Assembly: GCF_016406125.1 (NCBI RefSeq)
Contig: NZ_CP066339.1
Span: 868,001 to 932,000 of the forward strand
Reading direction: 5' to 3'
From: Alicyclobacillus sp. SO9
Lineage (GTDB): Bacteria > Bacillota > Bacilli > Alicyclobacillales > Alicyclobacillaceae
Length of the DNA stretch: 64,000 bases
Every line of letters begins with the position of its first letter. Position 1 is the first letter of the stretch. This document shows, piece after piece, positions 3,617 through 29,191 of this stretch. The position numbers and the translations under genes were made by a program. Under the pieces are notes generated by a model. The model worked only from the letters and a program-made list of their open reading frames with translations, ran no database searches and had not been told where the DNA came from.

Positions 3617-3676
3617 ACTTGAAAAGTTGTTGACCTTGACGACTTTAGGGGAATGAAATGGAAAGGAGAGCAGTGG

Positions 3677-4312
3677 ATGAAATCCATCAGCAAGGGCACT
3701 ATTGCGGCACTGAGTGCAGCTGGAATGCTTGCACTTAGTATTGTTCCAGCGTTCGCATCTACGACGGGTACAACAGTGACACTGAACCCAGGTTCGTTAA
3801 CTGTATCGTCACCCTCTTTCGTGACGGAGTTTCCGGCTGTCACCCTAAACGGGCAACCGCAACAGGTGACCGCCACTTTAGGGGCGTGGACAGTTGTTGA
3901 CGCCACCGGATCCGGGAATGGATGGAAAGTGGACCTGACCGCGAGCCAGCTGACAGAAGTCCAGCCCAGCTCCGGCTGGGCCAGTGGGACCAGTGCTAAG
4001 AAACTTCCGCTCGGTAGCCTCAGTCTATCGGGTCAACGGTCTATTGTTACTGGTACTGGGTCTACACCTGTGAGTTCGACCAACGGACCGGTGCTGCAAA
4101 ACCAGAGTGCCGCGATAGACACGGGAACGCCTGTTACCCTCATTGATACGCAGCCAAACTACGGAATGGGTACGTATACCATTCAGGAACCGAAGGCTGG
4201 ACTAACGTTATCTCTGAGTCCAAAGACAGCCTACACCGATCCAAAGAACTATCCGAGTTCCCCCACTGTGTATGCAACGAATCTTCAGTACACGGTGAGT
4301 TCTGGTCCGTAA
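3677..4312 (+). CDS. Secreted WxL-like surface protein
   Basis: A 211-aa exported protein. The ATG at 3677 has AAAGGAGAG at good spacing, which makes it better than the in-frame ATG at 3653. A signal peptide (Lys-Ser-Lys, hydrophobic core, AFA-S cleavage near residue 28) is followed by a WxL-like domain over the rest of the protein. The first motif AWTVVDATGSGNGW resembles the W-x-L-x-V-x-D-x-R-G-x-G-W pattern of WxL proteins, and the protein ends in YTVSSGP where canonical members have WxL and a terminal Pro. WxL domains bind the cell wall non-covalently and work with DUF916 partners, and the next gene encodes one. Aromatic substitutions (Tyr for Trp) make this a divergent member. Confidence 0.75.
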   Translation: MKSISKGTIAALSAAGMLALSIVPAFASTTGTTVTLNPGSLTVSSPSFVTEFPAVTLNGQPQQVTATLGAWTVVDATGSGNGWKVDLTASQLTEVQPSSGWASGTSAKKLPLGSLSLSGQRSIVTGTGSTPVSSTNGPVLQNQSAAIDTGTPVTLIDTQPNYGMGTYTIQEPKAGLTLSLSPKTAYTDPKNYPSSPTVYATNLQYTVSSGP

Positions 4313-4395
4313 TGGAATAGGCAGGTTCTTCTATATCGTTTCTGGTGCCCTCTACGAGGTTGTAGGGGGCAAACCGGAAAGGAGGGAATGAAGCA

Positions 4396-5442
4396 ATGAC
4401 AGTTGGGAAGGTCGGGAAGTGGGTTTCACTCGTTGCTTCTGGTGTCACGACGGTTGTATTTGCTGGTGCAACGGCCTTGGCATCCAGTAGTACAACACTT
4501 AGGACGGGATCGTCCATGAACTTTACAGCGAATCCCACGAATCATAGTCAAGTAGATCCTACCATCAGCACGTATTTCTTAGACAAGGGTTCACAGGGGA
4601 AAGTTCTTCACGAATCTCTCCAGTTGGCCAGTCACTCGAGTAAGACCATTCAAGTCCATTTGTTCGCCACCACGGCATCCAACGGATTAAACGGGAACAT
4701 CGTCTATGGATTATCTCCTAAACATACATGGATAAAGAAGTTGCCAGGCGTCGTTACGCTGCGTGCTGACCAAACCAAACAGATTTCGTTTGAGGTCGCA
4801 GTTCCGCAAGGCACAACGTCAGGTGATCATTTATTCTCTATATCCTGCAGCGACGGCCAGCATCAGCAGCGCATTCGGAATACAGGTAAGTCTGGGATTG
4901 AACTCGGTATCAATGAATCTGTACGGCGTGTTGTGGCAGTTGAGGTTGAAGTTCCCGGCGTTCAGAAAGTTGCATTGGACCTGAAACATGTCAAAGTAGG
5001 GACCTACCCGTCTGGTCAGTACTATGAAGTCAGTGGTGCTGATCAAAGCAATATCATTTTGAAAAACATCAGTGGGTCCATGACCTTATACAAAGGGACG
5101 CGGCAGGTCCTGACTCGAACCTTGACCGGCCTTAGTTTTGCGCCGAACGAGCCGATCACGTTTGAGGACCGATGGGTGAAAGGTGCGGCCCCCATCGGAA
5201 CCTACCATGTGCAGATTGTGCTGCGTGGCAAGGGGCTGGGGAAGTATACGAAAAACCTCACTTTCAAAATCACCCCTCCAGCCATTCGTCACTATGACCA
5301 ACTGACAGGCCATAAAGGCGTGCAGTTTGTTGTTGCGGATTGGGCGTGGTGGGTCCTGGGAGGACTAGGGCTGTTGACCATGGGGATGGTGGGATATGTA
5401 GTTGTGCTGAGGCGACGACGGTGGAAAGGGGAATCGTCATGA
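4396..5442 (+). CDS. DUF916-type WxL-interacting, membrane-anchored protein
   Basis: A 348-aa protein with a signal peptide (cleavage near ALAS, residues 27-30), two beta-rich domains resembling the peptidoglycan-binding and host-binding domains of WxL-interacting proteins (about 35-170 and 170-300), one membrane helix (about 315-338) and a short Arg-rich cytoplasmic tail. This layout is the hallmark of the WxLIP family, which anchors WxL proteins at the surface. The ATG at 4396 has GGAGG upstream. It is flanked on both sides by WxL-like genes and overlaps the next by 4 bases (ATGA), so the three form one operon. Confidence 0.8.
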   Translation: MTVGKVGKWVSLVASGVTTVVFAGATALASSSTTLRTGSSMNFTANPTNHSQVDPTISTYFLDKGSQGKVLHESLQLASHSSKTIQVHLFATTASNGLNGNIVYGLSPKHTWIKKLPGVVTLRADQTKQISFEVAVPQGTTSGDHLFSISCSDGQHQQRIRNTGKSGIELGINESVRRVVAVEVEVPGVQKVALDLKHVKVGTYPSGQYYEVSGADQSNIILKNISGSMTLYKGTRQVLTRTLTGLSFAPNEPITFEDRWVKGAAPIGTYHVQIVLRGKGLGKYTKNLTFKITPPAIRHYDQLTGHKGVQFVVADWAWWVLGGLGLLTMGMVGYVVVLRRRRWKGESS

Positions 5443-7583
5443 AGATGAGACGACGAGTAATGAAGGTGATCGGTCTGTCGACCCTTATTAGCGGGGCGTT
5501 ATCCACACAGATTGCGTACGCGGGAACGCTAAGTGTACAAGGTGCATCGACGGTTACTTTTCCCCCAACGACTTTGAAGGGAATACCGCAATCAGTGACA
5601 GCAAACATGCCACCTTTGACGGTTGGAGATACCAGGGGGAGCGGAAATGGCTATCACATCACGGTGCAAGGTAGCCAATTGAAAGAGGTTGGCGGAAGAG
5701 GGCACACCTTACCGGCGGGTAGTTTACAATTGGCTGCTCCGAGCAAAGTAGTGGAATCTGCACAAGATGGAGTCAATTTGATTCCCAATGCTGGCTTTGA
5801 GTCCTATAGTAGCGGACCAACTGCAAATGGCTGGGCTATTTATGGCTCAGGAGGGTCATCTTCGGCGCAGGTCGTTACTTCACCGGTTCATTCAGGGAAT
5901 CATGCTCAGAAGTTTGTTGGGTCTGGAATCCCTCAATCCACTGGACAACAGTTATATCACGATATCCCGAGTGTCACACCAGGAGCTTCCTTTCAAGCCG
6001 GAATCTATCTGGATATTACCGCTATATCTGGCGCGACAGTAAACGTAGGAATAAACTGGTTTTCTAGTTCTGGGGCATATTTGTCCACGTCCAGCGCCAC
6101 AAAGAAGTTTACTGCGTCTAACAATACGTATGAATTGACGTCTCTTACAGGTACGGTGCCACAGAACGCCACTTCGGCCCGGATGAACATTACCATTGGT
6201 AGTATCTCCTCAAGCGGGTCTGCAACGCTATTCGCCGATGATGCTTACTACCAATCGAACCATGTCACAGTACCACAGGGCAGCAGCAATATTGTTCTTA
6301 ATAGTGGATTCGAACAGAAAGCGAGCGGAACGTCCACGCTTTTTAGCACGAATTTAACAAGCGGGCAGCCGTGGAATGTTACCACCGGTGCGGAATCGTT
6401 TGCTTCAAACGGTGCTACCAATACTGGAAGTGGAAATACCTTGGTACAGACTAAGACAGGGGGATGGACGCCAAGTAGCACACCAGCGGGCACTAGCTTA
6501 CCATTAACGGAGCAGGTTACTTTTACTACCCCATCCACCGTACCAGCGTCCGTTGGAGTCGATTTCCTGCAGGGAAATGGGTATTACTACCGAGCCGTAT
6601 GGCAAGGGGGAGACAACAACTTCGTTATTTATAAGGAAGCTCCTCCAGGTCGCCATGAGCCACCCAGTTACATTCCACTTGCATCAACAGGGACGGGATC
6701 TAATATTGTTAGGCAAGTTGCGAATACTCAGTACACCATGACTTTTTCCATCGATAGCTCCGGGAAACTTGTCGCATCCATCTACGGTGGCCGTGGCACA
6801 GGGGGATATAAGCTAACAACCATCAGTGCCTCCGACACTTCACTATCGGGGCCGTTTCAAATGGAGTTATACTCTGGTCCAGGTATGCGCTACACAAGTG
6901 CCCAACTAACGGGTCTGTGGCCCAACGGATGGAGTGTATATACAGGAGGAACAGTCGGGACATATGCTACTTCGTGGATTGCTGCACCGGTGTTTGCTGG
7001 GCAACGAGCGTTGAAAGTCTCTGCTTATAACGAACAACCCGGGGGTGCTCAATTCTGGCTTCACAACATTACTGTAACGGGGGGAAGACCGTTTACGGCC
7101 ACTGTGATGGTGAACCCTCAAGTGTTGAGTGGAGTAGCAGCAGTATTTCAAATTGATTGGTTTAATTCTAATGGATCATCTATTGGAGGAACCGGTTCAA
7201 TTCTAAATAAGGTGACAGAGGGATATGTACCGATGCAGATAACTGGTACCGTACCTAGTAGTGCTACGAGCGCTCATATTGATGTCATATTGAGAGACAC
7301 AACAAGTGGTGGATATGGAACCATGCTGGCTGATGATGTTAGATTTCAATATGGGCAAACTGGAGTACCTTTAATTCCAAAGGGACCTTGGACGGGAGAT
7401 AATAATACTGCTTCAACAGTTCTTTCGTCTCAAACGTGGGACGGGATGGGCAGGTATATTGTAGAATGGCCATCTCAATCATTTACTTTGAAACTAGAGC
7501 CAAAGAGTACCTATACCGATCCTTCCTCCAGTTCCATCACTTATCAATCACAGCTCACCTACAGCATCGTCTCAGGTCCGTAG
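5439..7583 (+). CDS. Large WxL-like protein with inserted carbohydrate-binding-like modules
   Basis: A 714-aa exported protein. The ATG at 5439 overlaps the upstream stop (ATGA) and has GGAAAGGGG before it. After the signal peptide comes the first half of a WxL-like domain (LTVGDTRGSGNGYHI, about residues 60-75). From about 120 to 640 lie modules beginning NLIPNAGFES and NIVLNSGFEQ, with W, G and S/T-rich beta strands and DDAYYQ / DDVRFQ ends. They look like jelly-roll carbohydrate-binding modules, probably three units, the middle one more divergent. The WxL-like C-terminal half then resumes (MGRYIVEW ... YSIVSGP) and closely matches the end of the protein encoded at 3677-4312. So the wall-binding domain seems split by a nested adhesin-like insertion. 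Glycan specificity is unknown. Confidence 0.75.
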   Translation: MKMRRRVMKVIGLSTLISGALSTQIAYAGTLSVQGASTVTFPPTTLKGIPQSVTANMPPLTVGDTRGSGNGYHITVQGSQLKEVGGRGHTLPAGSLQLAAPSKVVESAQDGVNLIPNAGFESYSSGPTANGWAIYGSGGSSSAQVVTSPVHSGNHAQKFVGSGIPQSTGQQLYHDIPSVTPGASFQAGIYLDITAISGATVNVGINWFSSSGAYLSTSSATKKFTASNNTYELTSLTGTVPQNATSARMNITIGSISSSGSATLFADDAYYQSNHVTVPQGSSNIVLNSGFEQKASGTSTLFSTNLTSGQPWNVTTGAESFASNGATNTGSGNTLVQTKTGGWTPSSTPAGTSLPLTEQVTFTTPSTVPASVGVDFLQGNGYYYRAVWQGGDNNFVIYKEAPPGRHEPPSYIPLASTGTGSNIVRQVANTQYTMTFSIDSSGKLVASIYGGRGTGGYKLTTISASDTSLSGPFQMELYSGPGMRYTSAQLTGLWPNGWSVYTGGTVGTYATSWIAAPVFAGQRALKVSAYNEQPGGAQFWLHNITVTGGRPFTATVMVNPQVLSGVAAVFQIDWFNSNGSSIGGTGSILNKVTEGYVPMQITGTVPSSATSAHIDVILRDTTSGGYGTMLADDVRFQYGQTGVPLIPKGPWTGDNNTASTVLSSQTWDGMGRYIVEWPSQSFTLKLEPKSTYTDPSSSSITYQSQLTYSIVSGP

Positions 7584-7716: not shown

Positions 7717-9351
7717 ATGCCAGTAACTTGTATTGTTTGTAACAGACCACTTCGGGCACCGAGAAGTGTCATGCAGCAAGTGGGACCCGTTTGCGCAAAG
7801 CGTGTGCGCGAATTGGGTGCACAAATTCAGGCGCAAATGCGAAATGAAGGGACGTGGACAGATTCTGCAGCGTCTAGCTTTCGACCGGGGCAAGACGGAT
7901 GGCTTGCTTTGGCGCAGCAAGCGCATGAAGGATATGTCCACACACGCGCCGCGAGAAGAGCAGCAAGAATCCGAGCCAGGCAACAGGCGCAGGGAACTCC
8001 GCAGCCCGAGCCAAGGACAGAAATCGTCCCTCATGTTTGGTCTGCGACACAACAGGACTACGGAGACCTGGAGTATGTATATCTCAGTGCTGACCAGGCT
8101 GAATGTCATTCCAGTTCCGGAAATACCTACTTTGTGACAGAAAACTCCTGTACGTGTCCGCATCATGACCATAGGGGTGCAGTCTGTCGCCATATTCAAG
8201 GGTTCCGCCAGTTACAAGGGATTCCTGCAGAACCTGAGACGGTCTCTGATCCCGTTCCTCGTTCCATGGTTCAGTCTGAACCCGACTTGTCTGCCTTCGA
8301 TTCACCAGAAGAGGCGTACCGTGAACAACAACTGAATGTCTGGCGCAGCTATTCAGGACAACCGACCCTGTGGATGTCTCAGGATGACCAGGCTTGGGAA
8401 GCCCTTCGTGACGAGGCTAGGGGAGACTTATCTTATGCTTACGAGGGGGTTTTGGGAGGTACGGACAACACCTTTGGCTTGGAGATCGAGTTTGAAGATG
8501 GCGATACGGATTCTATCGGCAGAGAACTGTACGGGGACGGTTTGTTGCTCTCCCCTCAACGCAGCGGATACCATGGCCGGACTGCGGAAGGAAAGTGGAA
8601 ATTTGAATATGACGCGTCTGTCTCCAGGGGAGAGCGTGGGGGAGAACTCGTCTCTCCGGTATTTGTTGACTCCCGAGAGAGTTGGGCACAAATCCAACGC
8701 GTGGCCGAAGTGGTCCATCGACATGGGGGCCGGGTGACCGTCAGTACGGGTGGGCATGTACATATCGGCATGGATCCGTTAGATGACCGAGCGTACCGTT
8801 GGCAGCGTCTTGCTCGTATCGGATTGGGCTACGAGAAGGCACTGTATCGGATGGGGGCAGCGGATGACGCCGCTTTTCAACGCGGGGACGCTGGGCGTCA
8901 TAGAGGCGCTCATTATGCCAACCCGATCCCCGATTCGGCCCGAAGAATGTACGGGACCTCTTTAACAGCCGACCAGGCGAGACGGTTGCTTGTCAACCAC
9001 TCTGGGAGAGGGCATGGTGCGCGATACACGGCGTTCAATACCATGGGCTATATTGAACGGGGCATCCCAACCGTCGAGTTTCGCTATCCCAATAGTTCAC
9101 TGGATCCCCGCTCCCTGCAAGCGCAGGTTCGTGTGACCAACGCATTGGTCCATCAGTCTGCCATCCTGAGACAGGCTACAGACCAGGGGCAGCTGCTGCC
9201 AGGACTGTCTCAAACCCGTGAGCAATGTCGTGTCAGTCAGCGTGTTTCGGAAGAACAAGAAACACAGAACTTCCGCAAGTTCCTGGACGTGCTTGGGAAT
9301 CGGGAGGTTCAATTGGCCGCAACATGGCTGTGGTTGCGAGGACGAGCATGA
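7717..9351 (+). CDS. Zinc-finger/SWIM/amidoligase fusion protein
   Basis: A 544-aa protein with three parts. Residues 5-26 (CIVCNRPL...GPVC) look like a DUF6011-type zinc ribbon. Residues 145-159 (CTCPHHDHRGAVCRH) match the SWIM finger CxC...CxH. From about residue 253 a glutamine-synthetase-like amidoligase domain begins (FGLEIEFE), with GGELVSP, a GGHVHIG motif and a late EFRYPNSSLDP motif, all features of the Amidoligase_2 family. Such enzymes are predicted to form amide or isopeptide bonds using ATP. It heads an operon that ends in a gamma-glutamylcyclotransferase-like gene, a pairing known for amidoligases. The zinc parts suggest nucleic acid or protein binding. Substrate unknown. Confidence 0.8.
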   Translation: MPVTCIVCNRPLRAPRSVMQQVGPVCAKRVRELGAQIQAQMRNEGTWTDSAASSFRPGQDGWLALAQQAHEGYVHTRAARRAARIRARQQAQGTPQPEPRTEIVPHVWSATQQDYGDLEYVYLSADQAECHSSSGNTYFVTENSCTCPHHDHRGAVCRHIQGFRQLQGIPAEPETVSDPVPRSMVQSEPDLSAFDSPEEAYREQQLNVWRSYSGQPTLWMSQDDQAWEALRDEARGDLSYAYEGVLGGTDNTFGLEIEFEDGDTDSIGRELYGDGLLLSPQRSGYHGRTAEGKWKFEYDASVSRGERGGELVSPVFVDSRESWAQIQRVAEVVHRHGGRVTVSTGGHVHIGMDPLDDRAYRWQRLARIGLGYEKALYRMGAADDAAFQRGDAGRHRGAHYANPIPDSARRMYGTSLTADQARRLLVNHSGRGHGARYTAFNTMGYIERGIPTVEFRYPNSSLDPRSLQAQVRVTNALVHQSAILRQATDQGQLLPGLSQTREQCRVSQRVSEEQETQNFRKFLDVLGNREVQLAATWLWLRGRA

Positions 9352-9421
9352 TGGACTCATTGACACAGTCTGACACGTAATGTATCATATACGAAACAAA
9401 GATGAGACCGGAGGAGTTTAT

Positions 9422-10132
9422 ATGAAACGTATTGATGAGAACAGCGAACTGACCGCAGCCTTCGTCGTGAGCTATGAAGGCAGGATGTTTGAGGCGGACA
9501 CCCCGAGCCAAATCCTGACGGAGATAACCGGGGTCTTTTTCCCGGATGAAGAGCCGATTACAAGATGGCTGGTGCGTGGGAAGTATGCAAGACAATGGCT
9601 CAACACCTTTGCAGCAGAGTCCAGAAAAGCTGAAATCGTGAGTGGTGACCGGAAGGTGGAAGCCAACTTTATCAATCGGTACAGCAAGGATGAATCTGAG
9701 AATGAGGAATTCAGTTCTATGGAGTGGAGTGACGAGCCGGTAGCAGTGATCAATATTCTAACGGATCGGACGCTGTTTCAATCGTTGTTGGAACTAGACC
9801 TCCTATCGGTGATGGAAAGAGAGGACGTATTCTACTTCCGGAACGGGGGTCCCTGGGCCGCATCGTACGAGGCCGGGCAAACCTCCTGTCAGTTGTGCCG
9901 GTATTTTCGTTCATTTCCGGATGGCAGCACACGATGTGTGGATCAAGCGGTGGATCTACAACATGGTGAGCGGGTCAGTCCAGATGCGCCTGTGGGGTGG
10001 TTCTGCCAAGCCTTTGCGCCCTTACATGACAATGACGGGCTGGATGAACGGGTTGGGGGAAAGTATGTCCCGATATCTCCAGACATGGTGCATCTCCCCG
10101 AATGGCAGGTCAACTATGTCAGCGAAGAATAG
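9422..10132 (+). CDS. Uncharacterised protein with a four-cysteine C-terminal motif
   Basis: A 236-aa acidic soluble protein. The ATG at 9422 has GGAGG, which makes it better than an upstream in-frame ATG at 9380. I do not recognise the family. The last third contains CQLCRYF, a Cys about 15 residues later (TRCVDQ), and a fourth in GWFCQAFAP. This resembles a metal- or Fe-S-binding site, like the small Cys-rich domains that follow many phage and plasmid proteins. It lies between the amidoligase and the XRE regulator and overlaps the latter by 17 bases, so it belongs to the same operon. It could be a substrate, a partner of the amidoligase, or an independent accessory protein. Confidence 0.7.
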   Translation: MKRIDENSELTAAFVVSYEGRMFEADTPSQILTEITGVFFPDEEPITRWLVRGKYARQWLNTFAAESRKAEIVSGDRKVEANFINRYSKDESENEEFSSMEWSDEPVAVINILTDRTLFQSLLELDLLSVMEREDVFYFRNGGPWAASYEAGQTSCQLCRYFRSFPDGSTRCVDQAVDLQHGERVSPDAPVGWFCQAFAPLHDNDGLDERVGGKYVPISPDMVHLPEWQVNYVSEE

Positions 10133-10481
10133 AGTTGGAGGGAGAATCCAAGCTCTTCGAAAGGCCCAGACGATGTCTTTACGTCGTCTGGGTGAGCTTT
10201 CAGGTGTAAGTGCATCCCAGCTGTCCAAGATTGAGGCAGGTACACATGATACGACGGTGGGTACCCTGGAGAACATTGCACAGGCATTAGGATGTACAGC
10301 GGCTGAACTTCTCAGTGACAGCATGGATGGTGTCATGGATTTGGAGATGCTCTGTTACACGTCTGCGGCGTGGCGTACGACAGCAGGAGTCCTGTATCCG
10401 ACCGACGAGGAGAGAAAGCTGATGGCGCAACAGATTCGGATGGTTCAAACGTATTTGTCATCTGGAGGAGGCGAAAAGTGA
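10116..10481 (+). CDS. XRE-family HTH regulator
   Basis: A 121-aa DNA-binding protein. The N-terminal helix-turn-helix (about residues 10-65) has the standard XRE pattern: IQALRKAQTMSLRRLGELSG, then SASQLSKIEAG, then TLENIAQALGC. The C-terminal half is short and shows no ligand domain. The start overlaps the previous gene, and its stop codon (TGATG) overlaps the start of the next gene, so it is translated as part of the amidoligase operon. It probably controls this operon or the wider accessory block; its target is not visible. Confidence 0.85.
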   Translation: MSAKNRVGGRIQALRKAQTMSLRRLGELSGVSASQLSKIEAGTHDTTVGTLENIAQALGCTAAELLSDSMDGVMDLEMLCYTSAAWRTTAGVLYPTDEERKLMAQQIRMVQTYLSSGGGEK

Positions 10482-10858
10482 TGTGGGTGTTCGTATATGG
10501 CACGCTGCGTTCCGGTGAATCCAATCACCACGTCATTCAAGAAGACATTGTCGAGTTAGAGCCAGGAAAAGTGGCAGGCGTGCTGCACGACGCCGGTCAC
10601 TTTCCTTATCTGGTTACCGGTGATTCGGGTTGTGGATATGTCACAGGGGACTGGCTACGAATTGAAAATGATACGGCGCTCGTGAAACTGGACAGTCTGG
10701 AAGGATTCAAGGAAGCTGGCTATGAGTTCAACCATTATGATCGTGTGGTATTGAAGGATGTCAATTCGGGCCGAACTGGGTGGGTGTACATAGCGGGGCC
10801 AAGGATTCGAACTGAGATCTATTCAGTCATCAGTTCGGGAGACTGGAAAGTAAGATAG
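10481..10858 (+). CDS. Gamma-glutamylcyclotransferase-like (GGCT/AIG2) protein
   Basis: A 125-aa protein with the GGCT fold. The N-terminal substrate loop VYGTLRSG (residues 4-11) and the later DSLEGF, with the usual catalytic Glu, are both present, followed by YDRVVLKD and a final WVYI strand. The ATG overlaps the XRE stop (TGATG), with GGAGGAGG upstream. Family members cyclise gamma-glutamyl amines and so reverse gamma-glutamyl amide bonds. Next to an amidoligase, the natural reading is that one enzyme makes, and the other trims or removes, a glutamyl-type amide. The substrate is not known. Confidence 0.85.
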   Translation: MWVFVYGTLRSGESNHHVIQEDIVELEPGKVAGVLHDAGHFPYLVTGDSGCGYVTGDWLRIENDTALVKLDSLEGFKEAGYEFNHYDRVVLKDVNSGRTGWVYIAGPRIRTEIYSVISSGDWKVR

Positions 10859-11349
10859 AAGGTATGGTTAAGGATGAAAATTCTCACTCTTTTCGACCGG
10901 CAAACTTATGCGTCTTTAATGTGTCCTGATGAACTATACTCTAAATTAACATCAAGGTTGTTAGTATTTCACGTCAAAATAGGGTGTTCTTTTGTGTTTA
11001 TCAACAGTGTCGTGTATGAGCCATAGGGTTGTTTTGACGTTCACTATAAATTGAACGAACTATCCGGTGCGCATCTAAGCTCGCCGTTGTGAATTACCGC
11101 CGCTCATAGTCCTAGTCTCTTGCTCACGAATGTAACCTTCCACTTTAATTTAGCTATTCTCATTATCATAGGTTTTTGATGGTTGTGATGCACCTCGGAG
11201 CCCCGATTAAGTGCTCTCTTGGCACGACTTCAAGAGCGTTAATAATACGGGGAATCACTTGAGCATGATTCTGCAGACTGCGTTGACATTTAGGGGCTCA
11301 CATCTTCGCAACTAGACTGTAAACCGGAAAACATGATTTTCCGAACCCG
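10859..11349. other. Non-coding gap between convergent amidoligase and ger operons
   Basis: About 490 bases. No gene is supportable. Near 11321-11345 a short inverted repeat (GGAAAAcatgaTTTTCC) lies just past the end of gerB and may act in termination, though it has no T-run. Confidence 0.4.
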
Positions 11350-12441: not shown

Positions 12442-12450
12442 TGTAAGACC

Positions 12451-15161: not shown

Positions 15162-15368
15162 TGAATTATGCTCCATCCTTTCAAGTGGTAGACCCTTACA
15201 TAATGCCGGATGTGTAACGTTTAACATGCCCAAAAATTCTTGCTAAAATGCGAAGAATTGTGAGACGACATTCGTATTTTCCTGCGTATGTGTCGTGCAA
15301 TATGTAGCCGCGTCGCATGTCCCTGATTTGGCATATTCATAAATAAACAGACAGAGGGGGAGAACAAT

Positions 15369-15803
15369 GTGGCAAGAAAAGGACTTCACCATCGTACGCA
15401 GACAAGGAATGGATTAGTGGCATTGCAATATTCCATTGATTTTTTCATTGCCATATTGCTATTAACAGGGGCCATATCCACCTCCGGAATCTTTGTTGTA
15501 CCTGAAGGGTTTTTTCTAGCTGCTACAGGTCCAGTATTTGGAAGCGATTTATTTGAAGGAAAGTCCGCTGAAACATCGATTGGGTTGAGAGCCGTGAACG
15601 TGATTGTTGCAATCTTGTTGATTTTGAATGTAATACGAGTGACGGGCCCATATATTACAAGTCAGCGTGCCATAATTGTGTTTAGTGGCGAGATATTTGG
15701 TATTAACGAGATTGCGGAAGTGGTAGGGCTAGATGAGATGGACAGAGATGTTGCATTTGAACTACGTCAATATGTTCGGTCTCAATTACTGCACGAACAT
15801 TGA
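15369..15803 (+). CDS. Ger-linked small membrane protein, copy 1 (unrecognised family)
   Basis: A 144-aa protein starting at GTG 15369 with GAGGGGGAG upstream; the overlapping ATG at 15367 runs into a stop after 16 codons. Two hydrophobic segments (about residues 20-45 and 75-95) flank a loop with FVVPEGFF and LFEGKS, and a hydrophilic tail follows. I do not recognise the family. A clear paralogue lies at 53867-54274, again divergent from a gerA gene. Identical runs include RNGLVALQYSIDF and ILLILNVIRVTG. The repeated divergent pairing suggests a role with the germinant receptor in the spore membrane. This is inference. Confidence 0.75.
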   Translation: MARKGLHHRTQTRNGLVALQYSIDFFIAILLLTGAISTSGIFVVPEGFFLAATGPVFGSDLFEGKSAETSIGLRAVNVIVAILLILNVIRVTGPYITSQRAIIVFSGEIFGINEIAEVVGLDEMDRDVAFELRQYVRSQLLHEH

Positions 15804-16553: not shown

Positions 16554-16597
16554 CTTTGTCATACACCTCTCCATCTTATAGGGGAGGTTCTTTATTT
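16554..16597 (+). promoter_or_regulatory. TTGTCATGC-hairpin element, copy 3
   Basis: CTTTGTCATACA is followed by an 8-bp stem ACCTCTCC / GGGGAGGT (one T-G pair) around loop ATCTTATA, then TTCTTTATTT. One base of the core differs (TCATA for TCATG). It lies about 80 bases before the serine resolvase start. Confidence 0.55.
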
Positions 16598-17581: not shown

Positions 17582-17667
17582 ACGATTTATGCCTTACTTT
17601 CTTTGGAATTGGACGCAAGGTTGTCGCGGGATAGGTTACATCATATGGTGATGGTTGAGATACCTGA

Positions 17668-21978: not shown

Positions 21979-22071
21979 TGTGGATATTACAAGTCGTTGG
22001 CAGTGTTGTTGTCCTAGGCGCTGTTACCCGGTATGTGATTGGACGACCTTGGACGAAGGGAGGGCAGAGCC

Positions 22072-22899
22072 ATGAAGTTACGTAAAACCGTGCGCGTCCT
22101 TATGTTCATACTTGTCAGTCTGGGGGCCATCGGGGGTGTAGGAACGCTCATTCCCCATCATACGGCAGCTGTAAAGAAAGCGCCGAAGTCTATCCAATAC
22201 GCCGGAGAGCGGGCGTTTGCCGCAGCCTTTGCGAAAGCGTACCTGACGTTTCAACCTTCAGATTCATCGAGTACAAGGGAACAGGAAATGGCCTCCTTCG
22301 CCGGAAATGCCAGTTGGTTAGGCTCAGATCCGGCTGTGACCTCTCCAGGGAAGAAACCGCAAACGGTGGGTCAAGTGCTGGCAGGCCGGGTTGCAAAACT
22401 GGATGCGTCCCATGTCACGGTGAATGTGCTGGTGTATCTGAGTACACCAAAGGCGCGTTGGGTGAAGTTGGTGGTCCCGGTTGGCCTCTCTGGAGCACAC
22501 TATGACGTCTATGCGCCGCCTACAATCACAAGCGCCTTTACAGGGGTCGCCAATGTAAAGGACAAAACCTGGTCGGGGAACGCGGCACCGGTAGCAGTCG
22601 TCACGAAAGTGCAAAATGTGCTCCAAGGGTTTCTCCCCCTGTACTTTCAATCCAGCGGGGTTACACCGCTGCAGCCGTATTTAAACTCGGCTGCCCATGT
22701 GCAACCGGGGGATGGGCTGGTGAAGTTTGTGAAGATCGATACGCTAAATGTCTACGGTGCGAAGAAGGGGCCATGGATTGCCGTGGCAGACGTCCAGGTC
22801 AGCGATCCGGTGACAAAGATTCACTATGAAGAAGAGTTCGCCATTGGGCTGGAAAGTCAGGCCGGGCATGATATCATCACGGGGATCGTCGTGAATTGA
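22072..22899 (+). CDS. TcpC-like (VirB8-type) conjugation protein
   Basis: A 275-aa protein with one N-terminal membrane helix (about residues 8-28) and an extracytoplasmic region of two NTF2-like halves (about 40-150 and 165-275). This matches the TcpC / ConB / Tn916 Orf13 family, which forms the inner scaffold of Gram-positive conjugation machines, the role of VirB8. The ATG at 22072 has GGGAGGG upstream. It is the first gene of the secretion operon, followed by TcpE, VirB4 and VirB6, the order seen in ICEBs1 and Tn916-like elements. Assignment rests on layout and position more than on a sequence motif. Confidence 0.7.
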   Translation: MKLRKTVRVLMFILVSLGAIGGVGTLIPHHTAAVKKAPKSIQYAGERAFAAAFAKAYLTFQPSDSSSTREQEMASFAGNASWLGSDPAVTSPGKKPQTVGQVLAGRVAKLDASHVTVNVLVYLSTPKARWVKLVVPVGLSGAHYDVYAPPTITSAFTGVANVKDKTWSGNAAPVAVVTKVQNVLQGFLPLYFQSSGVTPLQPYLNSAAHVQPGDGLVKFVKIDTLNVYGAKKGPWIAVADVQVSDPVTKIHYEEEFAIGLESQAGHDIITGIVVN

Positions 22900-22915
22900 A
22901 TCATCAAACCACAGA

Positions 22916-22953
22916 TTTGTCATGCAACCCCTCTTCGGTAGAGGGGTTCTTTG
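22916..22953 (+). promoter_or_regulatory. TTGTCATGC-hairpin element, copy 5
   Basis: ATTTGTCATGCA then AACCCCTC, loop TTCGGTA, GAGGGGTT, CTTT. It sits 17 bases after the TcpC stop and directly before the ribosome site of the next gene, inside what should be one operon. It may lower read-through or set expression ratios. Confidence 0.6.
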
Positions 22954-22962
22954 GAGGTGAGG

Positions 22963-23547
22963 GTGCTGAATTTCAAGACCCATGAAATGGTGGGGGCTTT
23001 GTCGATGGAGATGGTCCTGGTAGAGACTCACGCTGGGTTGCATTGGTGGACCCCCGTCCTGGTGGTGGCAGCGGGCCTTGCGGCTCCGGTACCAGATATT
23101 GACCAGCCAGAGAGCTGGATTGCCCACAAGATTCCCCTGGGGCAGGTTGTCGGTCGGTTTGTTCGGCACAGAACCGTCACCCACAGTTTGTTATTCCTGG
23201 CACTCTTGTGGGTGGTTCTGCTGAGAGTGGTGCAGATTCCGCTGCCACTGGGGCTTTCCTGGCACAGTGTCGCCTGGGCTTTGTGGATTGGGTATGCTTC
23301 TCATCCCCTGGCAGATTTATTGAACCCACAGGGCGTGCAGCTGCTTTGGCCGTTGCCATGGTGGGTGAAGGTGCTACCAGAGCCCATTGCCATCCCTGTG
23401 GAGTCCGGACGAGAGGCACTCTTGCACGCCATCTTGACGTTGCTGGTAGTCCTCATCGCTGCTGCCTTTGCAGTTGCCCACTTACCGGGCCACGTCCCGT
23501 TTGTTACGTCGCTCTCGCATCACATTCTCAGCATCATCACGTTTTAG
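22963..23547 (+). CDS. YdjM-like membrane-bound metal-dependent hydrolase
   Basis: A 194-aa membrane protein of the YdjM family. It shows the N-terminal KTHEMVGA motif, PVPDIDQPES, and the diagnostic HRTVTHSL near residue 71, plus several membrane helices and a SHPLADLLNPQG motif. These His and Asp residues are thought to bind metal; the substrate of the family is unknown. The GTG at 22963 keeps the TH motif close to the N-terminus and has GGAGG 5 bases upstream. Other in-frame starts are TTG 22951 and ATG 22987. Finding it inside a conjugation operon between TcpC and the small membrane protein is unusual. Confidence 0.78.
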   Translation: MLNFKTHEMVGALSMEMVLVETHAGLHWWTPVLVVAAGLAAPVPDIDQPESWIAHKIPLGQVVGRFVRHRTVTHSLLFLALLWVVLLRVVQIPLPLGLSWHSVAWALWIGYASHPLADLLNPQGVQLLWPLPWWVKVLPEPIAIPVESGREALLHAILTLLVVLIAAAFAVAHLPGHVPFVTSLSHHILSIITF

Positions 23548-23579
23548 ATTCCTGTACAGGGAGAGAGGAGAAATGAAAC

Positions 23580-23942
23580 ATGTTCCAGTTTGGAAGGAAA
23601 CTCAAAAAAGGATTCATCGGTCTCATGGCAGGGCTTATATCGAGCGTGGCCAGTGTGGTGACGGTATTGGCCAATTCAAATCCTCTCAGTGGTATTTCCA
23701 GGCCTTCCGTCTCCAGTTCCAGCGGTCCGGGTGCAGGCATGTATCAATACCTCATGCCGCAAATTGTACCCATCTTTTTATTAGCACTGGGGGCGATGGC
23801 GGTTTGGTACTTTGTCCGTCACCAGCATACGAAACTTGTGACCTTGGTAATGACAGCGACCATCGTGTTGGTCATTCTCACAGAACCCACGGCGCTGGGA
23901 ACGTTTGTGTCTTGGGTAGGCGGTTTATTCAAGCAACTGTAA
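23580..23942 (+). CDS. Small two-helix membrane protein of the secretion operon (ConC/VirB2-like position)
   Basis: A 120-aa protein: a basic N-terminus with a hydrophobic segment (about 10-32), a Ser/Gly/Pro linker (about 35-52) and two further hydrophobic segments (about 58-80 and 85-105). It has ribosome site AGAGGAG before ATG 23580. It sits where small membrane proteins such as ConC of ICEBs1 lie in related loci. VirB2-type pilins also have a leader plus two helices, so a pilin-like role is possible. Sequence alone does not decide. Confidence 0.6.
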   Translation: MFQFGRKLKKGFIGLMAGLISSVASVVTVLANSNPLSGISRPSVSSSSGPGAGMYQYLMPQIVPIFLLALGAMAVWYFVRHQHTKLVTLVMTATIVLVILTEPTALGTFVSWVGGLFKQL

Positions 23943-23955
23943 GGAGAGGGCAGGC

Positions 23956-24639
23956 ATGAACAGAACCTATCGGAAGTTGTTTCACCAACGCCCGACCCTG
24001 ACGAGCCTGGGGGACTTCAAGTTCCCTGCGGGCATCAGTGTGCCCTTGGATGGGCTGTTGGCGTTTGTCATTTGCCTCTTGCCCGCCATGGCTGTGGCAC
24101 CTGTGTTGCACTGGACGCTGGGGATCAGTCGTCTCATCGCAACGCCCATCCTGGCGTTTGCCGGAGCGTGGCTGGCGACACGGATGGATATGCAGGGGAA
24201 ACCCTTTCCGGTGTGGGTGATGAATCTAGCTGCCTATTTCTTTCGTGCCCATCACAGCAACGGCTGGGACCCCGTCAAGGCAGCGGGGTGCATTCCTGGG
24301 GGACTGCAGGTCGATGTGGGCTGGTTGTCTTCCAAGGGTAACCAGGTGCAGTCTGGTGCGCTGCCGGTCGAAGTGAGATCCATTCAAGGCGATCCCGTTG
24401 AGCTCCAGACCCACGTGCCCGTGGATGTGAGAAAGCTGGAAAGACGCAAATACATCATCCATCGTGCTGTTTCTTCTGCCACACCCCGTCATACCAAGAA
24501 AGCCACTACCGGGTTGCAGCCGGGGCAGTTGTCCTTGACGGGCACGGAGGTGAAGTGGCGGGCACTCACATCGGTACCGACATTCCAAGCAGGGCAGAAG
24601 GCGTCGAAGGCCGTACGGGATCATCAAATTCGGTTTTAG
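23956..24639 (+). CDS. TcpE-family conjugation membrane protein
   Basis: A 227-aa protein. The first part fits the TcpE/ConD family: R-x-Y near the start, then FKFPAGISVPLDGLL, two membrane helices (about 34-75) and the cytoplasmic-side motif MDMQGKPFPVWVMNLAAYFF. The C-terminal half is hydrophilic and longer than usual. TcpE is a membrane part of Gram-positive type IV secretion. The ATG has AAGGAGAGGG upstream and begins 14 bases after the previous stop, with VirB4 starting 4-10 bases after its own stop. Confidence 0.75.
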   Translation: MNRTYRKLFHQRPTLTSLGDFKFPAGISVPLDGLLAFVICLLPAMAVAPVLHWTLGISRLIATPILAFAGAWLATRMDMQGKPFPVWVMNLAAYFFRAHHSNGWDPVKAAGCIPGGLQVDVGWLSSKGNQVQSGALPVEVRSIQGDPVELQTHVPVDVRKLERRKYIIHRAVSSATPRHTKKATTGLQPGQLSLTGTEVKWRALTSVPTFQAGQKASKAVRDHQIRF

Positions 24640-24643
24640 GGGG

Positions 24644-27205
24644 ATGAAGGTGGCGCACAAACTGTTTCCTGCAATGTATTGGGAAGACAATCGCATTTTT
24701 GATGTGGAGGGACAAGCCTGGGGGGTGTACAAGTTGCCCCAGTTCCCCTATGAGTTTCGGGCAGAAACGGAGCGCTTGGCCGTGTCCGACCGCTTTGAAC
24801 GGTTTCTGCACAACTACACGGGGAAGGGCATGCTGCTCAGCTTGAGCAAGCAGTTGTCTCGGCAGCAATTGGAGCAGCAAATGCGGGCGAGATCGTCGCA
24901 TCCGGTTTGGCAGGAACATGTCGATGCGGCGATGACAGAGCTAAAGTATCGCTTGGCCTATGAGCGCAGAGTCTATTTGATTCTACCTCTGCGTACATCC
25001 ACCGCCAATCTGCGGTTGGACCAATTGTTGACCGACAGCAACGCGTGGAAAGAGACCTTAAAAAAAGCGGGACGGCAGGTCATGAACGGCATTATGGACG
25101 TCGGTCAAAGTGCGCTGGACGCGTTCTTGCGACAAGGGACACAAAAGGAACTGTCGGAGGAGTTGCTGCAGGCTGCGTACAGTGTGGACCGTCAATTGAT
25201 GGCCAAGCTGAACGGGGCCATGAGCGGCAAGGTGGAGCGGGCCACGCCGGCAGAGCTGGAGTGGTTACATCGCAAACCGTACTTTCGAGGGATTGAAGAG
25301 CCGCAAAGCGTCCTCCCGGAACAGCTCCCCGTCTTGGTGTCCACGAAGCAGAACACAACGGTGATTCGTCCGCTTCGTACTTCCATGCTGCAAATTGCCG
25401 AAGCCGATGTGGTGGAGGACCTGTTTCGGATCCGGGTCCAGCACCCCAACCAACAGACCAGCTACCAGTCTGTCATGGCCCTGTCCAACTTTGCGGAGGG
25501 CATCGAGGACCTAGGGAACGAATGGCTGTACGAACCGCTGGAGAAACTGGACTTTCCGGTGGATGCGTGTATCCATTTTGAAGTGATTCCAGGACATGTT
25601 GCCAGAGCGAAGGTCCACCGCAAGAAAGGAGCTGCGGAAGACCAGTGGGACGAGCTGGCCAAAGACGGAGACGTGGAACTGGACGTGGAGGATGGATTGG
25701 CTGATGCCCCCATATCCGCCAAGCTGAAGGAAGGGATGCCCCTGGTGGAATTTCAGTCTTTTATGGCCATTGGGGCAGACAATGAACACAAGCTCCTGGA
25801 ACGGGAGGAACAACTCATCAACCAGATGGATGGGTATGCCCGTCTGGTCCATCCACAAGGAGATGCGAGAGCGTTGTTGCAGGCCTTCTTTCCATGTTTC
25901 ACGGGAGGGGTTCATTCGACCTGGAAGGTACCCGCTGAACCTCGGGTGGTGGCCTGTGCCGCTCCGCTTGGAACCAGTACCTTGGGTGACCCCTCCGGAT
26001 TTCTCTTTGGTCACCTGATTCACAGCGGGAAGCCTGTGTTTATGGATCCGGAACGACCCATGAGGGTGCTGAATCACTCCGGTTCCATGGCCTTGATTGG
26101 AGTGACCGGCTCCGGGAAGTCCATGACCATGAAGAATATTACGGATAAGCTGCTGGCCTTGAGCGGGATTGGGTATGTGCTTGACCCCAAGAAAGACGAG
26201 TACTTTAGTCTCTACCAGAGATGGGAGAAAGACGCTTATTGGTTGCGCTACGGCCGGGAGGCAGAGGCCGCGTTTACGCCCTTTCACCTAGCGACAGACG
26301 CTCGAGATGCCAGGGCCATTGCCCAGGGCTGGTTGGGGATTTTACTCAATATCTCCGGGTCCCGAGAGGATCGGTACGCGGCTATTGTCGTCAACGCTGC
26401 GCTGAATAAGTTGTACCAGACGCAGTCTTGGGATATGGAATCTTTTCTGGCCTGTGTGGCACGAGTGGGTGAAGAAGGGGAGAACGAGAAAGAGCGGCAG
26501 ACCGCTGCCTTGATTCGTCGAATCTTGGACCAGTTCCGTCATGATCCGGTAGCGCAGTGTGTCTTTGGTCAGGACGAGGCGAATCACACGTTGGCGGAGG
26601 CCAAACTGGTGGTGCAAAGTTTGCGGAATCTGGAGTTTCCGGACCGGAGCATGCCGGATCCAGACAAGTGGCGGGAGCCGCAGCGTTTCGCTGTTTCGAT
26701 GTTGTATCTGTCGACACAGATTGGCCTGCGCAAACTCATGGAAGCTGACTCTGTGATCCCAAAGTTCTTCCTCATCGACGAGGCATGGATTTTGCGGTCC
26801 ATCCCCGAAGGTCGGGAACTCATCAACCGTATTCTGTTGCTGGGGCGGGCCTTGAACCTGATTCTCGTTCTGGGCATTCAGAACCCGGATGTGCTGCTGC
26901 CAAAGCATGAAAACGACGACTTGACCGCCAATCTCGGCTGGCTCATGTTTTTTACGCTGGAATCCAATGTCCAGGTCCGGCACGCAGTCCAGATTTTACA
27001 TCTCCCGGATGATGAGGATTGGCAAAAAGTATTTTCCGAGTTTGGGAACGGGCATGGATTGGTGAGGAACCCGGAAGGGCACGTCGGGGAGCTGCAAGTG
27101 GATTTACTTCCGGAAACCCTGAAAGAGGCGTTTTCCACCACGCCAGGTGGTACAGAGACAGAGGGAAAGACGAGACAACGAAAGGTGCGTCTACAACGAG
27201 CATGA
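24644..27205 (+). CDS. VirB4-family conjugation ATPase (TcpF/ConE type)
   Basis: An 853-aa ATPase. An N-terminal VirB4-specific domain (about 10-430) is followed by a RecA-like motor: Walker A GVTGSGKS at about 486-493, Walker B FFLIDEAW at about 706-713, and an arginine-bearing LGRALNLILVLGIQNPD segment after it. This motor powers the secretion channel and is the most conserved gene of such systems. ATG 24644 has little room for a ribosome site; GTG 24650, six bases after GGGGG, may be the true start. It overlaps the next gene by 4 bases (ATGA). Confidence 0.93.
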   Translation: MKVAHKLFPAMYWEDNRIFDVEGQAWGVYKLPQFPYEFRAETERLAVSDRFERFLHNYTGKGMLLSLSKQLSRQQLEQQMRARSSHPVWQEHVDAAMTELKYRLAYERRVYLILPLRTSTANLRLDQLLTDSNAWKETLKKAGRQVMNGIMDVGQSALDAFLRQGTQKELSEELLQAAYSVDRQLMAKLNGAMSGKVERATPAELEWLHRKPYFRGIEEPQSVLPEQLPVLVSTKQNTTVIRPLRTSMLQIAEADVVEDLFRIRVQHPNQQTSYQSVMALSNFAEGIEDLGNEWLYEPLEKLDFPVDACIHFEVIPGHVARAKVHRKKGAAEDQWDELAKDGDVELDVEDGLADAPISAKLKEGMPLVEFQSFMAIGADNEHKLLEREEQLINQMDGYARLVHPQGDARALLQAFFPCFTGGVHSTWKVPAEPRVVACAAPLGTSTLGDPSGFLFGHLIHSGKPVFMDPERPMRVLNHSGSMALIGVTGSGKSMTMKNITDKLLALSGIGYVLDPKKDEYFSLYQRWEKDAYWLRYGREAEAAFTPFHLATDARDARAIAQGWLGILLNISGSREDRYAAIVVNAALNKLYQTQSWDMESFLACVARVGEEGENEKERQTAALIRRILDQFRHDPVAQCVFGQDEANHTLAEAKLVVQSLRNLEFPDRSMPDPDKWREPQRFAVSMLYLSTQIGLRKLMEADSVIPKFFLIDEAWILRSIPEGRELINRILLLGRALNLILVLGIQNPDVLLPKHENDDLTANLGWLMFFTLESNVQVRHAVQILHLPDDEDWQKVFSEFGNGHGLVRNPEGHVGELQVDLLPETLKEAFSTTPGGTETEGKTRQRKVRLQRA

Positions 27206-27543
27206 GGAGAGGATGGGAGATGCACAAGCGTGGGCGATTCCTTCTCTCTGGCATCCTGACGTCGGTCCTCACCTGGGTCGTTGCCGGGCCTTCTGTCTTT
27301 GCTGCGACAGCCGGGATGGCGAGTCCTGTCGGGTGGAAAAAGTACCCCTTTGGCAACTACGTCTGGGACTATTTCATCAAGAGCGGAATTCACTTTAATC
27401 CGCTCCATGGTACGGTTCCTACAACGATGAACCAAATTGCTAATTTGTTGGAACCAAATGAAGGTCCACATCATGTACCTGATGCTGGCGTTTCTGGATT
27501 TTGCGATTCACCCGAAACAGATTACAGGACCGATTGTGCATGA
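27202..27543 (+). pseudogene. VirB6-like protein, N-terminal fragment (first part of split gene)
   Basis: A 113-aa reading frame starting at the ATGA overlap with virB4 (27202) or at ATG 27220 with GGGAG upstream. It encodes a signal peptide (cleavage near FAATA) and then KKYPFGNYVWDYF, which resembles the YPxxNYxxD segment after the signal peptide in full-length mobilome VirB6 proteins. After about codon 80 the product loses hydrophobic pattern, while the next frame takes up a membrane helix. So 27202-29191 was probably one gene, broken by a one-base shift near 27437-27470. Alternatives are ribosomal frameshifting, a sequencing error, or two coupled genes. Confidence 0.6.
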
Positions 27544-29191
27544 ATTGTCGCATGTGTTGGCCGCTGGATATACGACCTTTTATACGCGATTGTTGCCAGG
27601 GGCTTTTGCCATTATGGCGCTGTTCTTGTTGTATCGGTTCGCGCGCAGTCACCATGCTTCGATTTTGCAGATTCTCCTAATGTTTGTGCTCGTTTCCGGG
27701 TTCGCCGTGGCGTTCTATACCCATTTCAGCGGCCTCATTGATGGCGTGACGAATTTCGATGATGCAGCGTCCTCGTATTTTCTGAACGTCGCCTCTGAAC
27801 TGGGACAAACCTATCAAGGGAATGACGGGAAGACAAAGCACATCCAGCCCGGCCAAAATTGGGTCTCGTTGATGCTCTCGACGAACGGTGGAGGACAGGG
27901 GAGAACCGAACTCGCCAAAGTGTTGTACAGTGCCCACATTCCAAGAGGTCATTTTTATCAATATGCCTCAGAGGACAGTCCCCAGAGCAGCCCCATGACA
28001 CGGTTGCAAATGGCCGCTTTCAATTTGGCGTTTCCTTTAGTCAGTCTGGTACCCGCCGTGTTTTTCGCATGGATGGGCGCGTTGTTGTTTGCCCTGACGT
28101 TCGGGTTCTTACTGACCGTCGTGGAGTGTGCCGTGCTCCTGCCTTTGACCGTCATCCCGGATTACGGATGGAACAAGCTGCTGCAACTGCTAAAGCGCGC
28201 TGCCGGACAGCTCATCATGAAGACGCTTAATGCGTTGTATCTGGGCCTCAGTCTCTTTGTCATGAACCTCATCTCCAATGGATTGTCCGGCTCAACGGTA
28301 GGACAGGAACTGAGCCTCATCATTATTAGTGTGGTGCTCTTGATCCTCTTGTTTTTCCGGGGGCGTTTTCTGCGAGAATTGACGACTAAATTACCCGATG
28401 ACTATCGCTGGACATGGCGGGACCGGGCTCGGGATGTGCGGCAGGAGGCGCGGCAGAAAACAACCCTGTTGAGAAGCAGATTACAGCGGACACCAGGAAG
28501 CAGACGGGATCGCAGCACAGACAGTGATAACTCCGCTTCAGGAGGGGCAGGCGGAAGTAGCGGGCGGAGTCCCAGACGTTCCACTGGGTTCAACAACGGT
28601 GCAGGGGGTGGAACCCGTTCCAGTACAGGTTGGAGTGGAACTAACAAAGTGAGTAGCAGTCATAGAGCCGATACAAACACAAGCAGCAGGTCCCCAAAAC
28701 GCCGTATCTCTGCGCAACTGCGAGGGGCAAAGGAAACGTTCATGGAAGCTTCTGTAGGGAAATGGACGAAAGGATTGCCAAGCTCCCTCAAAGCCAAGCG
28801 CGCGTATCAAGGAACAGGGAGGAAATATCGCCTGTCGCAAGGGAAGCGTTCAGAGACACCTCGTGTTGATGGAACATCCAGCCGGACAACGCCTCTGACA
28901 TCGACTGAAGGGCACGTTCCCACAGCACAATCTGTGAATGAATCTGCCAAGGTGTCAAGGGATGGACGCAGTTCAACGGTGAAGGACCGGTCTCCACATG
29001 CCGCACATCGTGTATCACAGAAGAGACCCACGAAAGTCCGGAGGTTTCGCAGAAATGTTAATGGGATACAAAACAGGACACGTCCTCTGACACCTTCTGA
29101 GCGGCGCGTTCCACCAGCGCAATTCGTGAATGCATCTCCCAAGGCGTCAACGGATGGATTTATTCGCATGTTCTATAAAATGGAAATGTAG
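27473..29191 (+). CDS. VirB6-like polytopic conjugation protein, main part
   Basis: About 572 aa from ATG 27473 (AAGG upstream); in-frame starts at ATG 27458 and TTG 27437 also exist and overlap the previous frame. It has about six membrane helices, including blocks near residues 1-15, 45-100, 190-260 and 270-310, and then a long hydrophilic tail rich in Arg, Ser, Gly and Thr. That layout fits VirB6/TcpH/ConG, the channel-forming inner membrane part. The tail contains two similar stretches (around RTTPLTSTEGHVPTAQSVN and RTRPLTPSERRVPPAQFVN), a recent internal duplication. The signal peptide seems to lie in the preceding frame. Confidence 0.7.
   Translation: MYLMLAFLDFAIHPKQITGPIVHELSHVLAAGYTTFYTRLLPGAFAIMALFLLYRFARSHHASILQILLMFVLVSGFAVAFYTHFSGLIDGVTNFDDAASSYFLNVASELGQTYQGNDGKTKHIQPGQNWVSLMLSTNGGGQGRTELAKVLYSAHIPRGHFYQYASEDSPQSSPMTRLQMAAFNLAFPLVSLVPAVFFAWMGALLFALTFGFLLTVVECAVLLPLTVIPDYGWNKLLQLLKRAAGQLIMKTLNALYLGLSLFVMNLISNGLSGSTVGQELSLIIISVVLLILLFFRGRFLRELTTKLPDDYRWTWRDRARDVRQEARQKTTLLRSRLQRTPGSRRDRSTDSDNSASGGAGGSSGRSPRRSTGFNNGAGGGTRSSTGWSGTNKVSSSHRADTNTSSRSPKRRISAQLRGAKETFMEASVGKWTKGLPSSLKAKRAYQGTGRKYRLSQGKRSETPRVDGTSSRTTPLTSTEGHVPTAQSVNESAKVSRDGRSSTVKDRSPHAAHRVSQKRPTKVRRFRRNVNGIQNRTRPLTPSERRVPPAQFVNASPKASTDGFIRMFYKMEM

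Follow-up and report, generated by a model that had tools for sequence, protein, structure and literature searches.

A candidate amidoligase module with a four-cysteine partner protein on a conjugative-type element of Alicyclobacillus sp. SO9

In 2009 Iyer et al. reportedly predicted, in phages and plasmids (the LUZ24-like phages among them), gene clusters composed of an amidoligase, a glutamine amidotransferase (GATase), an ATP-grasp protein and a gamma-glutamylcyclotransferase (GGCT). In the accessible parts of later sources, the LUZ24-like phage UFV-P2 carries COOH-NH2 ligase, amidoligase, GATase and ATP-grasp genes, clusters of this type are found also in the TC6 and OM43 phages, and pairs of amidoligase and GGCT are described in Tn6164 (orf22-23), in Arthrobacter cluster AL phages, in C. 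clostridioforme prophages and in phage ZRK32, none of these pairs being given there with a tested activity. The locus presented here lies at positions 7717-10858 of a stretch of 64,000 nucleotides from Alicyclobacillus sp. SO9 (contig NZ_CP066339.1, positions 868,001 to 932,000; the window, in what follows) and comprises four genes, all on the + strand, coding for a predicted amidoligase of the glutamine synthetase (GS) fold, a protein with four conserved cysteines (the Cys protein), an XRE-type regulator and a GGACT-type cyclotransferase. The original prediction, made from the letters of this DNA, had presented the locus as a candidate new peptide-modification system; with the published pairs, the coupling of amidoligase and GGCT as such is not new. 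The Cys protein accompanies the ligase at all the loci compared, the cyclotransferase is a frequent and the regulator a local companion.

The ligase and the Cys protein

The ligase (544 aa, 7717..9351, + strand) combines an N-terminal DUF6011 finger, a SWIM-like motif and the Amidoligase_2 catalytic domain (PF12224; aa 252-477, 8470..9147), the last being recognized by Pfam with E 8.6e-16 and 59 bits against a gathering score of 22, and matched at E <= 0.1 by all of the 17 homologues aligned, which represent 17 of the first 22 loci. Residues E256, E258, E310, H347, N441, E454 and R456 are invariant in these 17 sequences and, with the exception of N441, are putative Mg/ATP ligands by analogy with the structure of GS; neither the conserved residues nor the modelled fold speaks against the amidoligase assignment of the original prediction. 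Examination of the AlphaFold model by VIA-align, carried out on Foldseek's own list of matches, points to a GS-like carboxylate-amine ligase fold, with YbdK (Z 12.9 and 12.3), plant glutamate-cysteine ligase (12.3) and GS (about 11) as structural relatives, together with Dop (Z 11.1) and PafA (Z 10.4), over alignments of 210-256 residues. Searched as a sequence profile, the ligase retrieves from the PDB chains, as best match, a capsid protein at E 0.35; in the viral contigs scanned with its alignment, none of 23 pattern matches was confirmed.

The two zinc modules first proposed for the ligase are recognizable as motifs and less secure as domains. The DUF6011 part (aa 2-31, 7720..7809, +) exceeds the Pfam cut-off in the window ligase (E 4.8e-8) and is matched by all 17 aligned members; since just three cysteines (C5, C8 and C26) are invariant there, zinc binding by this part can only be presumed. 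The SWIM-like CxCxnCxH motif (aa 145-159, 8149..8193, +) keeps its ligands C145, C147, C157 and H159 in 17 of 17 sequences, and the Pfam SWIM model (PF04434) stays below cut-off in the window ligase (E 0.077, 13 bits against a gathering score of 19.6), gives any match in two of the 17 members and is passed by a distant relative in genome G513 (20.8 bits). No mention of DUF6011 was found in the literature searched; these hosts have DUF6011-like fingers also in short open reading frames (ORFs) belonging to other proteins (loci L046, L047, L048 and others), some perhaps on the same elements.

The Cys protein (236 aa, 9422..10132, + strand) is encoded by an ORF extending over 9380-10132, in which ATG 9422, behind GGAGGAG, is the likelier start when the DNA is read directly; the second copy of the gene in this genome has GTG in place of this ATG. 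In an alignment of 20 chosen rows, C156, C159, C172 and C195, as well as Glu24 and Asp42, are invariant (numbering from start 9422). Apparently, the protein represents a family of its own: no Pfam family is found over cut-off, PHROGs, NCBIfam and PADLOC give no match at E <= 0.1 among the members scanned (bar one PHROG at E 0.053), and the PDB yields nothing under E 0.5 by sequence and no match by fold; its model (mean predicted local distance difference test, pLDDT, 70.7, with the Cys region under 60) returned no row in VIA-align, which is not proof of a new fold. A similarity to PocR (E 0.05, below cut-off, in 2 of 20 members) is taken as chance. The C-termini vary (SEE, SKQ, RQK, KTD and others), Glu or Gln being the last residue in 9 of 27 loci, a count that leaves out locus L039 with its frameshifted Cys gene; a Pup-like ligation site at this end, having so few such termini, is unsupported. 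Stand-alone relatives are found beside plasmid-like genes: those of L100 and L101 adjoin a CopG-like and a replication-relaxation-like gene, and that of L102 lies downstream of tadA/tadB-like genes (labels assigned by reading).

Conserved linkage, the cyclotransferase and the genomic setting

Full-length, strong relatives of the ligase (E <= 1e-40) are present in 14 of the 101 relatives searched, and any match in 16. Six-frame profile scans of the neighbourhoods place the Cys protein downstream of the ligase, on the same strand, at 22 of 22 loci and a cyclotransferase at 18 of 22, arranged either as ligase-Cys-GGCT (8 loci) or as ligase-GGCT-Cys (10 loci); because the hidden Markov models employed were derived from these very loci (22 ligase, 17 Cys and 17 cyclotransferase sequences), the first 22 are not independent tests, the six further loci (L049, L050, L061, L062, L104 and L176, including those of G132 and G513) lying outside that set. 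Each of the 14 loci obtained from named genomes includes the Cys protein; 10 were treated as already counted and not added again, and the four new ones belong to three Paenibacillus and to Desulfovirgula thermocuniculi. In total, 28 distinct loci were collected, with the Cys protein in 28 and a cyclotransferase in 19, and the carriers include Alicyclobacillus sendaiensis, A. fructus, A. macrosporangiidus and Sulfoacidibacillus thermotolerans. The order ligase-Cys is therefore shared by other genera and, as Desulfovirgula and G513 show, extends well outside the family; of the four-gene order that had been put forward, the ligase and Cys genes persist beyond this strain throughout and the cyclotransferase in part, but not the XRE gene. 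Two loci are partial (L044 with a cut ligase, L104 with a ligase cut at the contig end), and the alignments cover 21 of the 22 loci (A1), 17 of the 22 (A2) and 20 chosen rows (A4, the Cys protein).

Two wider samples serve as controls. In the class sample (398 genomes) a strong ligase (E <= 1e-40) is found in 15 genomes and the Cys protein in 19, all 15 being among the 19 (in G012 the ligase and Cys fragments lie on different contigs); the four genomes with the Cys protein only are G001, G011, G038 and G039, and G059, G088, G158 and G284 (marginally G294 and G333) have the catalytic domain alone, without the Cys protein. In the phylum sample (398 genomes) G000 and G513 are the only genomes with the Cys protein and also the only ones with a strong ligase, the catalytic domain being present without the Cys protein in 20 further genomes; the ligase and Cys searches appear to cover the same 398 genomes in each sample. 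On the basis of these controls, the Cys protein tracks this ligase subtype, not amidoligases generally. The distances of the two proteins correlate over 21 loci (r 0.92, reached by 0 of 2000 permutations), which shows co-inheritance only. The ratio of nonsynonymous to synonymous substitutions (dN/dS) between the window and the second copy in this genome is 0.044 for the ligase, 0.086 for the Cys protein, 0.27 for the XRE protein and 0.11 for the cyclotransferase (over 111 codons, the C-terminus of copy 2 being in another frame); given these low values, the four genes are under purifying selection and are not chance ORFs.

The cyclotransferase (125 aa, 10481..10858, + strand; start ATG 10481 or, alternatively, GTG 10478, as read from the DNA) matches GGACT (PF06094) with E 9.9e-20 and 71.7 bits against a gathering score of 22.8. 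It resembles the N-half of YkqA (PDB 2qik, residues 5-116, E 1.3e-6); the Alicyclobacillus partner resembles the C-half (127-273, E 1.5e-7) and human GGCT (E 6e-6), and those of G049 and G050 hold both halves in one chain, so that, judged by sequence likeness, the partner role is filled by either YkqA half or by both. Glu74 (LEG) of the window enzyme may be the catalytic glutamate; the YkqA N-half alignment has no Glu at this position, and in the C-half type the Glu of REG aligns with QEG of human GGCT. A fusion of the N-half and C-half types was considered as a novelty and rejected, YkqA itself having the same two halves. The modules of G010 carry the C-half type, and four separate N-half (type-A) GGACT genes lie 40-58 kb from a module of this genome, three of the four having a VirB4-type gene some 3 kb away or less (identified by reading, and in one of the three confirmed by Pfam); these stand-alone genes (L172-L175) are near-identical to one another.

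For the XRE/HTH_3 regulator (121 aa, 10116..10481, + strand), close similarity is confined to the two copies in this genome, and elsewhere only remote XRE matches and, near L028, L041 and L043, remote double-helix-turn-helix proteins were found; the regulator was rejected as a core member on this ground and is a local extra, outside the conserved unit. The tight packing and partial overlap originally described for the four genes hold, with small corrections of the starts: the XRE gene overlaps both its neighbours, the Cys gene by 17 nt and the GGACT gene by 1-4 nt. A promoter-like site in the gap between the ligase and Cys genes (TTGACA-17-TATCAT, 9360..9388, + strand), a consensus match only, agrees with the consensus at 11 of 12 positions, six such sites being present in the region against 4.0 +- 1.8 expected in shuffles; with this site, two transcripts are possible, and the module may be transcribed as two units.

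A second ligase, 98 percent identical, lies about 140 kb away. The window unit and this copy belong to two collinear mobile regions, one spanning -8871 to +94808 in window coordinates and the other 717806 to 787118 in the genome, which match piecewise. Both copies share TcpC, YdjM, TcpE and a VirB4-type ATPase, which in the window form, with a large membrane protein, a block at 22039..29191 (+ strand); copy 2 carries tadA/tadB-type genes, a relative of the actin-like ParM and a replication-relaxation gene. Since neither the element ends nor an integrase were found, the designation as a conjugative-type element, probably of Tcp/Tad type and present in two copies in this genome, follows from gene content. 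Upstream of the module lie WxL-type surface-protein genes (WxL, WxLIP-like, WxL; 3653..7583, + strand; two of three matches below cut-off), duplicated together with it; both neighbourhoods are context and not core, and the location beside a surface-protein operon and within a conjugation-linked set is as had been stated. In Paenibacillus macquariensis, TcpE is followed in turn by a VirB4-type ATPase, a large membrane protein, the ligase and the Cys protein; the ligase gene, at its ATG, shares 4 nt with the end of the gene for the membrane protein, and this membrane protein is similar to the protein that follows VirB4 in the window element (22 percent identity, E 4e-13). Several Alicyclobacillus loci have T2SSE/T2SSF (tadA/tadB-type) genes upstream; a RimK-like ATP-grasp gene runs into the start of the ligase gene in G513, where a weak DUF4417 match follows the Cys gene; in Desulfovirgula a class-II GATase and a GGACT protein precede the ligase.

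The two copies also differ in parts outside the module. The third protein of the WxL operon (window 5436-7580; L023 9921-12014) is 45 percent identical between them, with dS saturated, against a protein identity of 92-98 percent for the WxL genes upstream of it and for the module downstream; with this difference, it may be a swapped or diversified surface protein. Window stretches 10848-16555, 17232-21900 and 29158-58419 interrupt the element relative to copy 2, where they are unmatched; among their contents are genes of spore-germination-like type at 11350-15803, DNA of an IS110-type transposase and a cobalamin-type gene block, labels that were assigned partly by reading. Around the IS110-type transposase, at 17484-21331, stand two pairs of direct repeats (433 bp, 96 percent; 556 bp, 99 percent). 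Copy 2 has, just upstream of its WxL genes (L023:2146-6259), a pair of type III restriction-like genes (N6_N4_Mtase and ResIII), which is not in the matching window stretch.

Proposed activity and alternative explanations

With a probability of roughly 0.45, the ligase, the Cys protein and the cyclotransferase are proposed to constitute a three-gene module of Bacillota conjugative elements whose ligase acts on a macromolecule. As a GS-like amidoligase, the ligase would couple carboxylate and amine at the expense of ATP, forming an amide or isopeptide bond of gamma-glutamyl type; the zinc modules and the four-Cys partner, the latter as adaptor or perhaps itself as substrate, would bring the ligase to its macromolecular target, plausibly a protein rather than a metabolite and possibly one of the transfer apparatus or of the mating cell; the YkqA/GGCT-type enzyme would remove or trim gamma-glutamyl groups as 5-oxoproline. 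The class of chemistry is firmer than the type of substrate, protein or metabolite, and for this reason the proposal is kept at this value and its two main rivals retain a real share of the probability. A more specific and rather improbable version envisages a conjugation-linked, Pup-like write/erase tagging, in which the ligase would attach the Cys protein, or a gamma-glutamyl unit guided by it, to proteins of the transfer apparatus or mating cell and the split YkqA-type cyclotransferase would erase the mark; if true, a Pup-like cycle would be run by a mobile element.

Several observations weigh against the macromolecular proposal. The ligase model is of moderate confidence (mean pLDDT 69.4; parts of the catalytic domain exceed 90, while loops fall under 60), the Foldseek template modelling (TM) scores are low (YbdK, E 3.7e-4, TM 0.31), and hhalign gives a weak alignment of the ligase with GS from these genomes (probability 0.7 percent, E 0.075), in which it nevertheless pairs GxH (GGHVH in the window with GMHTH in GS) and ExRxP (VEFRYPN with IEVRSPD). 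DUF6011 gave no match in the distant ligases of Desulfovirgula and G513. Homologues of the Cys protein occur without ligase in the four Cys-only genomes and as extra copies, several of them partial or at a contig end; around those of G038, G039 and the second G049 site no ligase is found within 16-17 kb. Type-A GGACT genes occur alone on elements of the same host (G010), nine of the 28 ligase and Cys loci have no cyclotransferase nearby, and PF06094 was not found in the whole genomes G044, G047 and G048; the cyclotransferase is, for these last two reasons, not obligatory.

YbdK and glutamate-cysteine ligases make gamma-glutamylcysteine, and GGCT and GGACT enzymes act on small gamma-glutamyl compounds. 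A small-metabolite pathway, in which the ligase would make a free gamma-glutamyl amide (a dipeptide, or a gamma-glutamyl amine or thiol) recycled by the cyclotransferase, is accordingly the strongest of the rivals, though itself unlikely: it is favoured by the identity of the closest model folds, YbdK and the glutamate-cysteine ligases, by the small substrates known for the partner enzyme, and by the lack of any GCS2 (PF04107) match in this genome and 20 relatives, while a metabolite enzyme would not usually have finger motifs fused to it or a four-Cys protein as constant partner, and the unit lies among conjugation genes, with no recurring transporter or further metabolic gene in the loci read. 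Somewhat more doubtful is a modification of the envelope, by which cell wall, pilus or surface proteins would be altered so as to aid mating or to exclude elements or phages; the same idea, in the parts of the sources seen, is repeated for the phage phiEco32 amidoligases (PMC10580990, PMC11318856), and the neighbours are WxL genes here, tadA/tadB-type genes in Alicyclobacillus loci and type IV secretion genes elsewhere, but no product has an export signal, as judged by eye, and the WxL operon is confined, among the loci compared, to the two copies of this genome.

Still less credit is given to a cassette for element defence or counter-defence (abortive infection or anti-restriction, for instance). 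Its location on a mobile element would suit such a role, as would the type III restriction-like pair that copy 2 has next to the module; against it, PADLOC gave 0 matches at E <= 0.1 for ligase, Cys protein and cyclotransferase, the XRE protein gave generic HTH matches only, and no clustering with other defence genes was seen in the loci read. That the genes are fortuitous neighbours without joint function is very improbable: Cys homologues and type-A GGACT genes do exist alone, and the order of the cyclotransferase and Cys genes varies, but the linkage of ligase and Cys protein at 28 of 28 loci across genera, their distribution in the phylum sample, the purifying selection and the retention of the cyclotransferase role in the cluster, even where its type has been swapped, argue for a common function.

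Comparison with described systems

The pairs of Tn6164, the Arthrobacter phages, the C. clostridioforme prophages and phage ZRK32 resemble the module in having a ligase and a nearby cyclotransferase on mobile DNA; no Cys partner is described for them in the parts of the sources available, the distinction being one of descriptions, not of sequences. The generic Bacillota amidoligases of the phylum sample, unlike the module, are without Cys protein. With the phage amidoligase/GATase/ATP-grasp/GGCT clusters the module shares Amidoligase_2 and GGCT on a mobile element, and differs from them by the N-terminal DUF6011 and SWIM-like motifs and by the dedicated four-Cys protein; none of the four window genes codes for a GATase or an ATP-grasp protein (the element beyond them being incompletely scanned), an ATP-grasp (G513) or a class-II GATase (Desulfovirgula) standing only beside relatives of the module. 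These two cases, together with the Streptomyces plasmid clusters, tie the module to the phage clusters: Streptomyces plasmids carry DUF4417, up to three amidoligases, GATase_6 and GGCT, with GGCT and GATase near the amidoligase, and the weak DUF4417 match of G513 recalls them. The amidoligases of the Streptomyces and Nonomuraea plasmid clusters (ParB-N, DUF4417) are distant homologues of the window ligase (26-30 percent identity), and the Cys protein is unmatched in the three plasmid stretches read.

In YkqA the two cyclotransferase halves are joined, whereas in the module they are mostly split and placed beside a ligase, the N-half type in the window, the C-half type in other modules and both in two loci. 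The pupylation enzymes PafA and Dop have, by model comparison, the same fold as the module ligase (Z 10.4 and 11.1, respectively); the C-termini of the Cys protein are not of the Pup-like GGE/GGQ type, and no Pup-like substrate was seen. Iyer et al. 2009 may already list the architecture; beyond that, what appears to be new is the combination of a ligase with zinc modules, a constant Cys partner, a split-YkqA partner and a tie to conjugation. The result is a compact and repeatedly conserved amidoligase module with a constant partner, of which one genome holds two full-length copies; compared with the described clusters, its coupling to a transfer operon in Paenibacillus and the constancy of its partner make testable what amidoligases modify.

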